A stretch of DNA of 64,000 bases, from the NCBI RefSeq assembly GCF_003023845.1, contig NZ_PYFT01000001.1, positions 2,728,001-2,792,000 on the forward strand. Direction: 5' to 3'. This DNA comes from Adhaeribacter arboris (GTDB taxonomy: Bacteria; Bacteroidota; Bacteroidia; Cytophagales; Hymenobacteraceae). A program made the position numbers and the translations under genes. How positions within the stretch are numbered: the stretch's first letter is position 1; the number at the start of each line of letters is the position of its first letter. This document shows positions 2,059 through 7,347 of the stretch, piece after piece. The notes beneath the pieces are model-generated. The model worked only from the letters and a program-made list of their open reading frames with translations. It had not been told where the DNA came from and did not search any database.

Positions 2059-3918
2059 ATGATAAAAAAAGTTTTCCTCTTTGTCGTCCTTTCCTGGTTT
2101 GGTCTTTTCTGGGCCCATGCTCAAACCAAAGAAATTCCCGTTGATAACCTCGGCTTAGTTCCGTTACCTTTAGAAGTTAAAGCTTACGAAGGTAAATTTA
2201 CTTTGCCCGCTAAAGTAGTAATTGCCGCCAAAACCGCTGACGAACAAAACGTAGCCGGATTTTTAAAAGATTATTTTACGGTACTGGGTAAAGTGGCTAC
2301 CGTAACCGCCGATGCGAACCTGGCGACGATAAAATTAAAAATCAGCGCGGTTACGGATAAAAATCCCGAAGGGTACCAACTAACGGTAGACCAATCAGGA
2401 GCTAGTATAACAGCTTCGGCCGGACCTGGATTATTTTACGGCGCCCAGACGCTGATGCAGCTTTTACCGCCCAAAGCGCAGGAGAATGTGGCCATTCCGT
2501 ACGTGCGCATCACCGACGAACCGGCTTTTAAATGGCGCGGCAACATGTTAGATGTAGCCCGGCATTTCTTTCCGGTAGCTTTCGTTAAAAAATACATTGA
2601 TAACTTAGCCACATATAAAATCAATACCTTCCATTGGCACCTCACCGACGACCAAGGCTGGCGCATCGAAATTAAAAAATATCCTAAGCTAACTACCATA
2701 AGCGCTTTCCGGAACGAATCTTTAATTGGGCCGCAGCAATTAATGAAAAAGCCCGAAGATTTTAAATACGACGGCCAACCGCACGGTGGCTTTTACACCC
2801 AGGAAGAAATTAAAGAGGTGATTGACTATGCCCAGAAACGCTACATTACCATTGTACCGGAAATAGAAATGCCCGGCCATTCGGTATCTGTTTTAGCGGC
2901 TTATCCCGAGTTAGCTTGCAAGCCGGGACCCTATCAAACTCGTACTTTATGGGGAATTTCCGAAGATATTGTTTGTCCGTCGGAGCAAACTTTTCAGTTT
3001 TTTGAAGATGTGTTAACCGAAGTGGTGCAGTTATTCCCGGGTAAATACGTGCACATCGGCGGCGACGAAGCCCCCAAAGACCGCTGGCGCGAAAGTAACC
3101 TGGTAAAAGATGTTATGAAAAAAGAAAAACTGAAAGATGTAGAAAAAGTGCAGGGTTGGTTTAACAACCGCATCGAAAAGTTCTTACTGGCTAAAGGCAA
3201 AAAATTAATTGGTTGGGACGAGATTCTGGAAGGTGGTATTTCTCCTAAATCTACAATTATGAGTTGGCGGGGCGAAAAAGGCGGCATTGAAGCCGCCCGC
3301 CACGGCAATGAAGTGGTGATGTCGCCGGCCTCGCATTTGTACTTAGATCACGGGCAGAACCCCGTTCCGCATAGCCCAGTAGAGCCTACGATGATTGGCG
3401 GTTATTTGCCTTTAGAAAAAGTGTACAGCTATAATCCGCTATCCAGCGAATTAACCCCAGCGCAGCATAAATTTATTCTGGGTACCCAAGCCAACTTATG
3501 GACCGAGTACATTACCATCCCGGAAAAAGTAGAATACATGTTATTCCCGAGAATTTTAGCGCTATCGGAGGTAGCCTGGACACCCTACGCAAAAAAAGAG
3601 TATTCAAACTTCCTGCAACGCTTGGGTAAACAATTCCCGCGGCTTGACGCTAAAAAAATAATGTACCGGGTACCGGAACCAGTAGGATTAGATGCAAGTA
3701 AAATCGTAACGCAAGGCGACAAAGCTATTCTTACCCTTTCTACGCTCTATCCCGATGCTCAGATCCGGTATACTTTGGATGGCTCCGTTCCGAACGAAAC
3801 CTCGGATGTTTACACCAGACCTTTAGCTATTCCCATTAACCGAAATATAAAAGTTAGAACGGTAACCATTACGCCTAATGGCCGCCATAGTGTACCGGCT
3901 GAGGTAGTAATTCCTTAA
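2059..3918 (+). CDS. Secreted beta-N-acetylhexosaminidase, GH20
   Basis: 619 residues. Residues 1-21 form a signal peptide (hydrophobic core, then AHAQ). A GH20b-like N-terminal domain (about 30-150) precedes the catalytic TIM barrel, which carries HWHLTDDQGWR at 192-202 and the catalytic pair D336-E337 in HIGGDEAP (332-339). The C-terminal stretch from about 555 resembles the chitobiase/hexosaminidase C-terminal beta domain (RYTLDGSVPN). The enzyme should remove terminal beta-linked GlcNAc or GalNAc from chitin fragments or glycans outside the cytoplasm. It is followed 28 bp later by a small frameshifted gene. It may supply amino sugars to the SusCD/SIS/ROK locus elsewhere in the window (inference). 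Confidence 0.93.
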   Translation: MIKKVFLFVVLSWFGLFWAHAQTKEIPVDNLGLVPLPLEVKAYEGKFTLPAKVVIAAKTADEQNVAGFLKDYFTVLGKVATVTADANLATIKLKISAVTDKNPEGYQLTVDQSGASITASAGPGLFYGAQTLMQLLPPKAQENVAIPYVRITDEPAFKWRGNMLDVARHFFPVAFVKKYIDNLATYKINTFHWHLTDDQGWRIEIKKYPKLTTISAFRNESLIGPQQLMKKPEDFKYDGQPHGGFYTQEEIKEVIDYAQKRYITIVPEIEMPGHSVSVLAAYPELACKPGPYQTRTLWGISEDIVCPSEQTFQFFEDVLTEVVQLFPGKYVHIGGDEAPKDRWRESNLVKDVMKKEKLKDVEKVQGWFNNRIEKFLLAKGKKLIGWDEILEGGISPKSTIMSWRGEKGGIEAARHGNEVVMSPASHLYLDHGQNPVPHSPVEPTMIGGYLPLEKVYSYNPLSSELTPAQHKFILGTQANLWTEYITIPEKVEYMLFPRILALSEVAWTPYAKKEYSNFLQRLGKQFPRLDAKKIMYRVPEPVGLDASKIVTQGDKAILTLSTLYPDAQIRYTLDGSVPNETSDVYTRPLAIPINRNIKVRTVTITPNGRHSVPAEVVIP

Positions 3919-3946
3919 ATATTGATTTTGTTAAGCAAAGAGATAA

Positions 3947-4380
3947 ATGGCAAGACACAAACCTTTAAAAAGTGTTTCACATAACTTCGGGCATTCATTT
4001 ATTAGCTTAATGAACTACTTAAATGATGACTACTTCTTAGGGCATTTGTTGAAGCAGGTAAGGATAACCAAACTAACTCGGCTTGAAGTAGATATTCTAA
4101 ATAATAAAGCTAAACCCGAAGAATTACTCACTAAACCAATCCATGATTCTGTAGGATATTGGAATGAGTGGTTTCCTGCTTTGGTCGAGAGTAGTGGCTC
4201 AACAATGGAGTTTGTTAAAAAGCAACTTTAGCAATAGAGTTTGACATACAGAATTCTAGATCTTATGCGAATGATAATAGTATTTTGGAGAATTCATTTA
4301 TCTGTGAGATAAGAATAGTTGACGATAAGGGAAAAGAATACAAACATAGACACGAAGGATGGTGGTTTCCTGAATCATAA
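3947..4380 (+). pseudogene. Small conserved-looking protein, frameshifted at an A-tract
   Basis: An ORF of 94 codons runs from 3947 to a stop at 4229-4231. Directly after it, in another frame, coding-like sequence continues (AIEFDIQNSRSY ... HEGWWFPES) to a stop at 4378-4380. The two halves join if one A is added to the AAAAA run at 4217-4221, giving a protein of about 141 residues. The N-terminal half contains HNFGHSFISLMNY. I do not recognise the family. Alternatives are a true frameshift mutation, a sequencing error in the homopolymer, or ribosomal slippage. The gene follows the GH20 gene in the same direction, and the IS110 element sits about 50 bp beyond it. Confidence 0.6.
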
Positions 4381-4497
4381 AAGAACTACAAGTGCTAACC
4401 ACACCTATACGGCAGCAATGCCGCCGCAAAGGTACTGTGTCAAAAGTCAAGTTTATTTTCAGAATTTTTTAGGAAGCAGTCAACTCACCAGGTTCTG

Positions 4498-5544
4498 TTA
4501 TCCTATGCAGCAAGGGCTTAGGTTCTTGCTGTTTTTTTGTTCGAACTCTGGGTTATAATATTGATTTTTCTGGTAAAGGCTATACATCAAGAGCAACAAT
4601 TTTCGCTGGACGGCTACTAGAGCTACAATCGGTTTGGCTTTCTTTGGTCGAAGGCGTTGGTAAAATACTTTCAAGGTTGGATTCACGCGTATGGCCGTCA
4701 TGGAGGGCATGTGCAGCATGCTCCGGATATGCTTGTTGCCTTTCTTGCTGATTTTGGTGCTGCCCCGGAAGTTGCCCGATTCCTTGAGTACCACATCGTA
4801 ACCCGCATAGCTGGTCAATTGCTTGGCGGAGCTTATTTCATTAAACCCGCAAGTTTCTCCCACTACCGTTGCCGCTGAAAGAAAAGAGACGCCCGGAATG
4901 CTTTCCAGATAATCCATCTTTTGGGCCAGCTCTTCATCGGTGGCTACCAACTCCCGCATTTCCTGCTCCACTTCTAACAACTGCTCCTCCAGCATTTTTA
5001 AACGCCTGGTATACCTTTTTACTTCTTTTTTATTACTGTAAGCGGCCGTTTCTACGGCGTGTAGCCGGTTTTTCTCCCCATTCTTCTGCTTTAATAAAGA
5101 TGATCGCTCGCGGCTTAAGGCTTTTAACTGGCGCAGGGTTTTATCGGGTGGAGACCAACGGGTGAGTTTGCGCTCGCAGCCCAGCATGGCTAGCATCCGG
5201 CTGTCCAAGGCATCCGTTTTAGAGCGCTGATCCAGGCTCTGGGCATAACGTTTTACCCGGCCTGATTGCATCACACTGATGGCAAACCCTTTCTGGTGCA
5301 GGTAGACGGCCAATGCCTCGTGATATACGCCAGTTGCTTCCAGCACCACGACTAGTTTTTCTTTGTTAACCCCCAGCTTGGTTAGCCAGTCGGTTATTTT
5401 CTGAAATCCGGCAGAGGTATTAGCGACCTCAGCAATAGAAATAAATTCCTTTTCTAGGTCCTGCCGTAAGGTGCCCAGGCAAACGGCTAAGGTGGCTTTG
5501 GCCACATCAATGCCCAGGGCGTGTTTTAATACATCTGCTTTCAT
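4498..5544 (-). CDS. IS110-family transposase (bridge-RNA-guided recombinase)
   Basis: 348 residues. The N-terminal RuvC-like DEDD domain shows D13 (GIDVAK), E69 (VLEATGVYH), and D111 and D114 (SKTDALDS). A coiled-coil-like middle (about 140-205) is followed by the C-terminal Transposase_20 domain with SIPGVSFLSAATVVGE and GNFRGSTKISKKGN, where S262 is the likely catalytic serine (inference from IS621/IS110). Length is normal and the frame is intact, so the element may be active. The start at 5544 follows the candidate bridge RNA directly. The family recombines the joined element ends with a target, guided by an RNA made from the left end. Confidence 0.95.
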   Translation of the reverse strand: MKADVLKHALGIDVAKATLAVCLGTLRQDLEKEFISIAEVANTSAGFQKITDWLTKLGVNKEKLVVVLEATGVYHEALAVYLHQKGFAISVMQSGRVKRYAQSLDQRSKTDALDSRMLAMLGCERKLTRWSPPDKTLRQLKALSRERSSLLKQKNGEKNRLHAVETAAYSNKKEVKRYTRRLKMLEEQLLEVEQEMRELVATDEELAQKMDYLESIPGVSFLSAATVVGETCGFNEISSAKQLTSYAGYDVVLKESGNFRGSTKISKKGNKHIRSMLHMPSMTAIRVNPTLKVFYQRLRPKKAKPIVALVAVQRKLLLLMYSLYQKNQYYNPEFEQKNSKNLSPCCIG

Positions 5545-5559
5545 AGGTTAATTGTTTTT

Positions 5560-5735
5560 AAAACCAGATTACTCTCTTCAACGCCTTTGCTCGTTTTTGA
5601 TTCGGCCTTATCAAACGGACCTAGGTACTGTTCAAGCTCTAAAGAAAGTAGATAGCAGGGTGGAAATTCTATGCGGCGGCATCATAAACATGTGCCCAGC
5701 CAAGTCCACCCTATCCCTGCTACCTGATTTTTGTT
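5560..5735 (-). ncRNA. Candidate IS110 bridge RNA (target and donor guide loops visible)
   Basis: Transcribed on the minus strand between the left end and the transposase start, as in the IS110 group. An outer stem pairs 5715-5705 with 5664-5651 (GATAG and GGTGGA arms, 3-nt bulge). Inside it, 5707-5698 (GGACTTGGCT) matches the left target GGACTTAGCT with one G-T wobble. Next, 5682-5669 (ATGCCGCCGCATAG) is complementary to the right target including core CT, 13 of 14 positions. Further 3', 5631-5623 (ACAGTACCT) equals the right end of the element, and 5594-5590 (ACGAG) complements core plus left end CTCGT. The order LTG, RTG, LDG, RDG is that described for IS621. The exact RNA ends are estimated. 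Confidence 0.82.
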
Positions 5736-5827
5736 AGAATTAATTTATTTATATTTAACCTACATACATAAGAAAAAGCTAACATACGAGCTAAGTCCGG
5801 TTAAGCGAAGAGATAGAGAATGATAAT

Positions 5828-5876
5828 AAAAGGTTACCCGGAGCTAATATTTTAGAATTAGTCGGGTAACCTTTTT
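5828..5876 (+). terminator. Rho-independent terminator
   Basis: AAAAGGTTACCCG (5828-5840) pairs with CGGGTAACCTTTTT (5863-5876). An inner CTAAT/ATTAG extends the structure, and a T-run follows on the plus strand. Without the IS110 element it would lie roughly 85 bp after the stop of the small gene at 4380, so it probably ended the GH20 transcript before the insertion. It could also act on the opposite strand. Confidence 0.75.
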
Positions 5877-6075
5877 ATTTTAAGGGAAAGATCTGTTTTT
5901 TAATTAGTTTAACGCAAAAGAAAATTAACGATAAAAAAGTAGCAAATTAGTAGTTTAAATACACCTTGTTTTAATCTTCCGGTGTCTTTATTAAGTAATC
6001 GGGTTAACTAAACTAGTATAAGTGATAAAAAATTAAGTATTTTAAGATTAAAACTATCATAAAGTAACTCCAACC

Positions 6076-7347
6076 ATGACTCTACCAGAAGCAAACTCCA
6101 GGCGGAAATTCCTTAAAACTTCCATTTCGGCCCTGGCCGGTATCACCATTGTTCCCCGTCATGTTTTAGGCGGTAAAGGGTATCTTGCTCCGAGCGATCA
6201 CCTTACCAAAGGTATTATCGGGGTGGGTTCTATGGGCCGGGGCCATATTCCTTATGCCGGCACCAAGGTGGTAGCTATTTGCGACGTAGAGCAAAACCAT
6301 ATAAAAATTGCTTTAGATAAAATTGGCAGTACGGTTAAAACTTTTTCGGATTACCGCGAGCTGATTCAATTACCGGAAGTGGATATTGTGCATATTGCCA
6401 CCCCACCGCATTGGCACGGCATTATGGCCGCCGACGCAGCCCGGGCTGGTAAAGATATCTGGTGCGAAAAACCCATGACCCGGACTATTGGCGAAGGCAA
6501 GCGAGTGGTAGAAGCGGTGCAGCAACACGGCCGAATTTTCCGGTTAAATACCTGGTTCCGGTTCCAGGATATGTTCTACGGCATGCGCACTCCGGTTAAA
6601 CCCATCAAGAAATTAGTAGAAAGTGGTTTATTGGGCTGGCCTTTAAAAGTTACCGTTGGCGCTACCACCGGCTACGACTGGAAGTTCTACTGGGTAGGTA
6701 AAACAAACCTGGATCCTATGCCGGTACCGGCTACCCTGGATTACGATGCCTGGCTGGGACCGGCGCCTTACAAACCTTATAACCCGCACCGCGTGCACCA
6801 AACTTTCCGGGGATACTGGGACTATGATGGCGGCGGTTTAGGCGATATGGGCCAGCATTATTTAGACCCTATCCAGTATTTCCTGGGTAAGGATGATACT
6901 AGCCCGGTTTCGGTGGAGGTAGATGCACCCCAACAGCATACGGATGCCGTAGGTACCTGGCGCCGGATTACGTACACCTATGCCGATGGCTGCCAGATTA
7001 TTTTAGACGGCGAAGGCAAAGACACGAATGCCGCTTACATTGAAGGCCCTAAAGGGAAACTGTATCCTGGTTTCCGGTCGGATATTCCGGAACTAGAGAA
7101 AAAACTTGCTGCTTTCCCGGACCCGCAACCGCAAGTAACGGATTTTGTAGATGCCGTTAAAAACCGGAAGAAGTTTGCCTTAAACGAAGAAAATGGTCAC
7201 CGTTCCTGCACCATTGTCAACATGGGACTCGCCGCTTTAAAATTAGGCCGTTCGCTCAAATACGATCCGGTAAAACAAGAATTCATCGATGATGAAGGTG
7301 CCAACCGCCTCATTGACCAACCCATGCGCGCGCCATTTGTGATTTAA
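6076..7347 (+). CDS. Exported Gfo/Idh/MocA-family oxidoreductase (Tat-type signal)
   Basis: 423 residues. The N-terminus has a twin-arginine-like signal (SRRKFLKTSISALAG, residues 8-22), typical of Bacteroidetes exported members. The Rossmann fold follows with GVGSMG at 49-54 and the family signature CEKPMTR at 130-136 (E131, K132, P133). The C-terminal domain has the 'GGGLGDMGQHYLD' region used for substrate binding in the family. Predicted role: NAD(P)-dependent oxidation or reduction of a sugar or cyclitol at a ring carbon; the substrate is unknown. The next gene downstream carries two DUF1080 (3-keto-disaccharide hydrolase-like) domains, which fits a keto-sugar pathway (inference). A repeat lies between them. 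Confidence 0.9.
   Translation: MTLPEANSRRKFLKTSISALAGITIVPRHVLGGKGYLAPSDHLTKGIIGVGSMGRGHIPYAGTKVVAICDVEQNHIKIALDKIGSTVKTFSDYRELIQLPEVDIVHIATPPHWHGIMAADAARAGKDIWCEKPMTRTIGEGKRVVEAVQQHGRIFRLNTWFRFQDMFYGMRTPVKPIKKLVESGLLGWPLKVTVGATTGYDWKFYWVGKTNLDPMPVPATLDYDAWLGPAPYKPYNPHRVHQTFRGYWDYDGGGLGDMGQHYLDPIQYFLGKDDTSPVSVEVDAPQQHTDAVGTWRRITYTYADGCQIILDGEGKDTNAAYIEGPKGKLYPGFRSDIPELEKKLAAFPDPQPQVTDFVDAVKNRKKFALNEENGHRSCTIVNMGLAALKLGRSLKYDPVKQEFIDDEGANRLIDQPMRAPFVI

Follow-up and report, generated by a model that had tools for sequence, protein, structure and literature searches.

The window, that is, the whole stretch of 64,000 nucleotides of Adhaeribacter arboris DNA analyzed in the current work, carries an IS110-type insertion sequence which very probably (at a probability of about 0.86) specifies a bridge RNA in its left end, the guides of this RNA being set to the attC-like cassette site of Hymenobacteraceae and the CT core being common to element and target (Table 1). 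On sequence grounds, the element is an insertion sequence of the IS110 type: it contains a long noncoding region of 244 nt upstream of the transposase gene and a further 66 nt downstream, and subterminal inverted repeats are absent, the longest exact inverted match in its outer 40 nt being 5 nt. The transposase matches PF01548 (4.3e-26) and PF02371 (5.9e-22) of Pfam, scores 207 bits against a cut-off of 140 with NF033542 (“IS110 family RNA-guided transposase”), and is related to the solved structures of ISCro4 (E 3.4e-34) and IS621 (PDB 8wt6, E 1e-33). Residues D11, E60, D102, D105 and S241, described as essential for IS621 in the available text of PMC11208158, align with D13, E69, D111, D114 and S256, and the protein thus possesses the DEDD RuvC domain and the Tnp domain with catalytic serine of IS110-type transposases. 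An initial annotation of this DNA had named an IS110 element with an apparently intact transposase, and both statements agree with these matches and with an open frame of 348 codons in which all five catalytic residues are aligned.

The ends of the element, which had been fixed to the base in that annotation, are corroborated by two further full copies in the host genome (own2 and own3), the transposase of which is 76% identical to that of the window copy. These two copies are identical to each other at 1356 of 1357 interior positions, while their flanks agree at 24 of 60 and 18 of 60 positions. The proposed CT core likewise holds in the sequence, with one AG (CT on the minus strand) at each side, and the empty site predicted from the guide matches resembles intact paralogous sites such as CGCAAAGCTTAATCCGTTAG at G000:C1:5198046.

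Table 1. Features of the element, its target and the associated cassettes. Positions are those of the window, except for the rows that name a locus (L), which are numbered within that locus.
Feature	Position	Strand	Basis
IS110-type insertion sequence	4432..5788	-	1357 bp between core dinucleotides; ends common to copies with unlike flanks, guide matches
Core CT (AG on +), right side	4430..4431	-	Sequence
Core CT (AG on +), left side	5789..5790	-	Sequence
DEDD transposase, 348 aa, open frame	4498..5544	-	Pfam, NF033542 and PDB matches
Predicted bridge RNA (stem-loop for target binding followed by one for donor binding)	5570..5724	-	RNAalifold, seven left ends
Left target guide (LTG) GGACTTGGCT	5698..5707	-	Flank match, shuffles
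Right target guide (RTG), 13/14 paired with right flank and core	5669..5682	-	Flank match, shuffles
Left donor guide (LDG) ACAGTACCT	5623..5631	-	Match to right end, shuffles
Right donor guide (RDG) ACGAG	5590..5594	-	Match to core and left end; alignment column
Interrupted attC-like target site, first part (GTGCTAACCACACC...CGCAAAG)	4392..4431	+	Model R1; intact paralogous sites
Interrupted attC-like target site, second part (CTAAGTCCGGTTAAGC)	5791..5806	+	Joined site aligns with intact sites
Probable single gene cassette before target site, starting GTTAAGC	3930..4391	+	Cassette reading inferred from arrays elsewhere in the genome
94-aa ORF in probable cassette	3947-4231	+	No Pfam match at E<=0.1
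Recombinase, L131 (G000:C1:6673000-6692000)	3227-4669		
Cassette array, L131	5316-16198		
attI-candidate leader, L131	4771		
attI-candidate leader, L133	5205		
attI-candidate leader, L134	4733		
attI-candidate leader, L069	629		

Relatives of the transposase are found in Pontibacter sp. HSC-14F20 (77% identity), on the Rufibacter tibetensis plasmid NZ_CP012644.1 (75%; this match has coordinates that coincide with those of contig C2 of genome G012) and in Marivirga arenosa (51%), and two genomes of the same genus as the host, G005 and G006, also carry relatives; the copies of G006 and Pontibacter have a stop inside the transposase frame. Among 395 genomes of the class, one further genome with a relative (39% identity) was recovered at E<=1e-80, 390 genomes of the order yielded nothing new at E<=1e-90, and the 12 pattern stretches retrieved from viral contigs included no relative of the transposase. 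Ten distinct insertion sites with readable ends were available (the window copy, the two other host copies and seven sites in relatives), with L041 and L036 counted as one site because their flanks are the same. The analysis of ends and targets left out relatives at about 36 to 42% identity, the relatives on Hymenobacter plasmids and a third, partial copy of G005.

The predicted bridge RNA is read from the noncoding left end, in which all four guide segments, as previously claimed, are located on the minus strand in the 5’ to 3’ order LTG-RTG-LDG-RDG and with the strand use of IS621. The LTG pairs at all ten positions with the left flank GGACTTAGCT (nine identities and one G-T wobble), the LDG matches the right end of the element at nine of nine positions, and the RTG and the right flank (5669-5682 and 4418-4431) also surfaced independently as a 93% inverted repeat. 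The RDG pairs at five of five positions with the core and left end; at 5 nt it is not significant alone, and its column in seven aligned left ends reads ACGAG or GCGAG. When the 244-nt end was subjected to 5000 dinucleotide shuffles, in which the order of the segments was not demanded, an equal or better best match was obtained 13 times for the left target, never for the right target and three times for the LDG. RNAalifold, applied to the seven left ends, predicts two long stems corresponding to the target loop and the donor loop, with a double change kept in 8 of 39 pairs. Folding of the noncoding end, a check proposed in the initial annotation, gave z = -2.55 for the single sequence (4 of 200 shuffles fold as well or better). 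In silico, the left end thus offers the target and donor loops with matching guides of an IS110-type bridge RNA; a search of positions 3800-6100 against Rfam returned no bridge RNA family, its one weak match being far under the gathering score.

A long RTG had also been noted, of which the 13/14 match stands, but the length is partly peculiar to the window copy and the right-side run varies among copies. Counted from the core and with wobbles included, uninterrupted pairing covers 2 nt in the window copy (a mismatch at position 3 is followed by 11 more pairs), 3 nt in own2 and G012b, 5 nt in Pontibacter and G006, 6 nt in own3, 8 nt in Marivirga, 9 nt in G005 and 11 nt in G012a; longer RTGs are on record for some IS110 orthologues (available text of PMC11208160). 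The final base of the LTG mismatches the core T in seven of the ten copies.

The flank of the element is not plain DNA but an attC-like cassette site, a point overlooked in the initial annotation. Four flank-only matches from a first search led to the palindrome GCTAACCACACCTA-hairpin-TAGCCAAGTACGTTAGC, and an alignment of 13 sequences was assembled from ten intact sites and three sites with their flanks joined, three of the 15 pattern sites (L025, L026 and L028) being excluded because no GTT arm follows them. The alignment shows the palindrome with conserved arms ending in GTT that is expected of an integron attC site. In the two-helix structure 89.6% of the cells are paired, and none of 500 shuffles was as high as the alignment in double-change cells (30 versus 12.3 in shuffles) or in covariation score (0.385 versus 0.141); the pairs that show a double change (7 versus 6.0; 134 of 500 shuffles) and the pair types (15 versus 12.9) are not exceptional in number. 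The derived covariance model (R1) has 41 matches at E<=0.01 in the host genome, two of which are IS-interrupted sites (those of the window copy and own2), and finds matches in 24 of 59 genomes, own included. In the 64-kb window its sole match is the interrupted site (39.5 bits, 4392-4443), the joined form of which is itself among the 13 training sequences.

Eight of the ten insertion sites are attC-like, three of them having served in joined form as training sequences of the model, and the other two, both in G005, represent another repeat. The core AG is positioned 6 to 9 nt before GTT in seven of these eight, own3 having TTT, which amounts to the fixed-position insertion known for the IS1111-attC group. 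The Marivirga site, at which the model has no match, is counted as attC-like by its own long palindrome and GTT. Minimum-energy DNA folds of the joined sites give long stems for Marivirga and G012a and no attC shape for most others, and the attC reading therefore rests on covariation, position and cassette borders. In G005, two identical IS copies (L039 and L059) lie inside two copies of another repeat (..CTTGTACCGGATAGCCTGGTTC..).

As judged by sequence comparison, the attC-like sites are the ends of gene cassettes in the host genome, and these GTT-bounded cassettes have moved. Among 37 array sites (a count that omits two partial matches, two duplicates from overlapping loci, one match with E>0.01 and the site of the window itself), 30 are preceded, within 400 nt, by the end of an ORF of 80 aa or more on their own strand, none by that of such an ORF on the opposite strand and seven by neither. 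A 454-bp cassette occurs twice in one array at 100% identity, and a 503-bp cassette is present, identical, in two arrays; both blocks start at GTT or one base earlier and end at GTT or GTTA. They are the cleanest of ten block pairs inspected: among the remaining pairs, two run on the left into a shared attI-looking leader and one starts 12 nt before GTT, and on the right three extend more than 10 nt beyond GTT. It is very unlikely that the palindromes belong to the ordinary dispersed repeats, such as REP-like sequences or terminators, with the element being another repeat-targeting IS110 like IS621, since the ORFs upstream of the sites lie on one strand, the identical cassettes break at the GTT of the site in different places, and a recombinase family described below lies upstream of the sites in relatives, with the same orientation in 17 of 17 matches, even if some sites are solitary, including that of the window with its one model match in 64 kb, and REP sequences are recorded as targets of IS621 and ISPa11 in the available text of PMC11208160 and PMC11187229.

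In the window, a near-identical sequence, GTTAAGC(A/G)AAGAGATA, is found at 3930-3945 and 5800-5815, flanking the IS together with the one cassette present, as though this place had formerly had two cassettes or the insertion site resembled a cassette start. A candidate attI is provided by a leader that recurs in similar form (..GATAACCGGAAC..CTCCGTATATCTGCTA-GTT in its clearest copies) directly ahead of the first cassette of four separate arrays; of the stretches fetched, that of L131 alone has the recombinase next to it.

The seven distinct guides pair with their own flanks at 97 of 105 non-core positions (wobbles included), compared to an average of 79.6 across the 5040 possible permutations, two of which reach this value, in a test that comprises only seven guides and in which guides and targets are linked by descent. 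Restricted to Watson-Crick pairs, the count is 87 for own flanks versus a mean of 65.3, again with 2/5040. The initial annotation had held that copies with flanks not matching their guides would speak against its reading; own-flank pairing is in line with that reading, though for three of the seven guides another site fits better. The own flank provides the best fit for the guides of the window copy, Pontibacter, Marivirga and G005, whereas for those of own2, G012 and G006 a different attC-like site in the set gives better pairing (for G006, 13/15 with its own site versus 15/15 with that of own2), and the guides therefore do not discriminate among attC-like sites. Where targets differ the guides differ as well, as seen for Marivirga (GCCTAGCT and CTAAAATG), Pontibacter (GTGCTGGG) and G005 (CTATCCG).

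A transposase that recognizes the folded attC hairpin as a structure, with the guide-like matches being secondary, would account for these three better-fitting foreign sites and for the entry, at one position, into palindromic attC-like sites in eight of ten cases; it is very unlikely considering that across the seven elements the guides change with the target sequence, that the guides of the two G005 copies are changed and match the different repeat in which these copies are located, and that most joined sites, by minimum-energy prediction, lack an attC shape as single DNA strands. Coincidental matches in an AT-rich end, for which the 5-nt RDG outside the shuffle test would leave room, have a negligible probability in view of the shuffle counts (13, 0 and 3 of 5000), the recurrence of the matches in related copies and the permutation test.

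Under the preferred reading, that of an IS110-type element guided to attC-like sites by its bridge RNA, this RNA would be transcribed and bound by the transposase; in its target loop the LTG would pair, to the left of the core, with the bottom strand and the RTG, to the right of it, with the top strand, and its donor loop would pair with the element’s own ends, so that the transposase could join a circular form of the element, by strand exchange, to a target with the same CT core. The element inserts in one orientation, at an AG that the inner stem has on its 3’ side, 6 to 9 nt before GTT, by which the attC-like site is split, and cassette mobility may be lost at the occupied site.

The array at G000:C1:6678315-6689144 is located after the gene for a 480-aa tyrosine recombinase. 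In this locus (L131), the recombinase is Xer-like with a doubled N-terminal motif and is followed by an attI-looking leader and then by attC-like cassettes. Relatives of the recombinase at E<=1e-90, a limit chosen after the list was seen, occur in 20 of the 59 genomes, own included, each of these 20 belonging to the 24 that have attC-like sites (Fisher p 3.8e-12), and at E<=1e-60 attC-like sites are present in 21 of 29 genomes with the recombinase versus 3 of 30 (p 8.4e-7), neither p being exact because the genomes are related. G003, G004, G005 and G121 have attC-like sites but no recombinase at E<=1e-90. In the flanks (up to 1.5 kb) of 30 recombinase loci, 17 model sites were recovered, which are distributed over 11 loci and in every case lie downstream with the same orientation; the other 19 loci have none. 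In Rufibacter tibetensis, the recombinase and the IS are separated by eight genes, all on the same strand, and this 16-kb stretch contains two model matches, one of them at the IS end.

The 480-aa recombinase is devoid of a stretch of approximately 29 residues which an IntI homologue of the same genus has at this position; the insert in the catalytic domain of IntI is described as essential for integron function in the available text of PMC8138268. An IntI with the family-specific insert was not found adjoining an array: IntI is above the cut-off in two of 59 genomes, in one case with an internal stop, and the model has no match within 1.5 kb of either gene. IntI was also considered as the array integrase and rejected, given the internal stop of the host-genome homologue, with no model match in the surrounding 19 kb, and given that no IntI reaches the cut-off in 22 of the 24 genomes in which attC-like sites occur. 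A similar neighbour gene is present beside both homologues (G000:C1:1659408-1660301, L068, with the internal stop, and that of G003, L150), and the G003 homologue deviates at residues common to the other recombinases (K for R, Y for H, L for H); the picture is that of a decaying integrase without cassettes. We infer that the 480-aa recombinase moves the cassettes, and the arrays that accompany it are possibly an undescribed integron type.

The wider interpretation, to which we assign a little better than an even chance, is that a bridge-RNA IS110 lineage has specialized, independently of the IS1111-attC group, on an undescribed integron-like platform of Hymenobacteraceae, the arrays of which are moved not by IntI but by the Xer-like recombinase with its doubled N-terminal motif, with guides that track the attC of each host and an element that marks and disarms the sites. 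If this is true, cassette recombination sites have been adopted as targets by two branches of RNA-guided insertion sequences whose RNAs lie on opposite sides of the transposase gene. The naturally occurring guides and targets of the lineage match to degrees that range from almost complete to poor, which helps to establish how much pairing is required by a bridge RNA. Since the guide of an element identifies its target, cassette arrays could be traced in Hymenobacteraceae by means of the elements, together with a candidate recombinase that is of another type. To our knowledge, integrons have hardly been recorded in Bacteroidota or in Hymenobacteraceae. A literature search, with most subscription papers and all preprints outside its scope and hence weak as evidence of absence, found neither IS110-type elements in attC sites nor integrons of Hymenobacteraceae.

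Compared with known systems, the arrays resemble integrons and CALIN arrays, as represented in the available text of PMC9024848 and PMC8618304, in having cassettes with palindromic, GTT-ending attC-like sites, a single orientation and an attI-looking leader, and differ from integrons in that the array-linked recombinase is an Xer-like protein of 480 aa without the IntI insert. The element is like IS621 and other IS110-type bridge RNA or seekRNA elements in its DEDD and serine transposase, its upstream noncoding region, its LTG-RTG then LDG-RDG order, its CT core and the lack of subterminal inverted repeats (PMC11208160, PMC11208158 and PMC11187229, in the portions available). It is unlike IS621 in that the transposase match is limited to E 1e-33, the host belongs to Bacteroidota, the target is an attC-like cassette site and not a REP sequence, and the right-target match of the window copy is long. 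RNA-guided insertion at a fixed place in the attC sites of integron cassettes is shared with the IS1111-attC group, of which ISKpn4, ISPst6 and ISPa25 are known in attC sites according to the available text of PMC11187229. In that group the RNA follows the transposase gene, subterminal inverted repeats are present and the order of target matches is reversed, whereas the window element, with neither a downstream RNA nor such repeats, is of the IS110 type. As eight of its ten sites are entered at one position of the attC-like palindrome, the element represents the IS110-type counterpart of the IS1111-attC elements.
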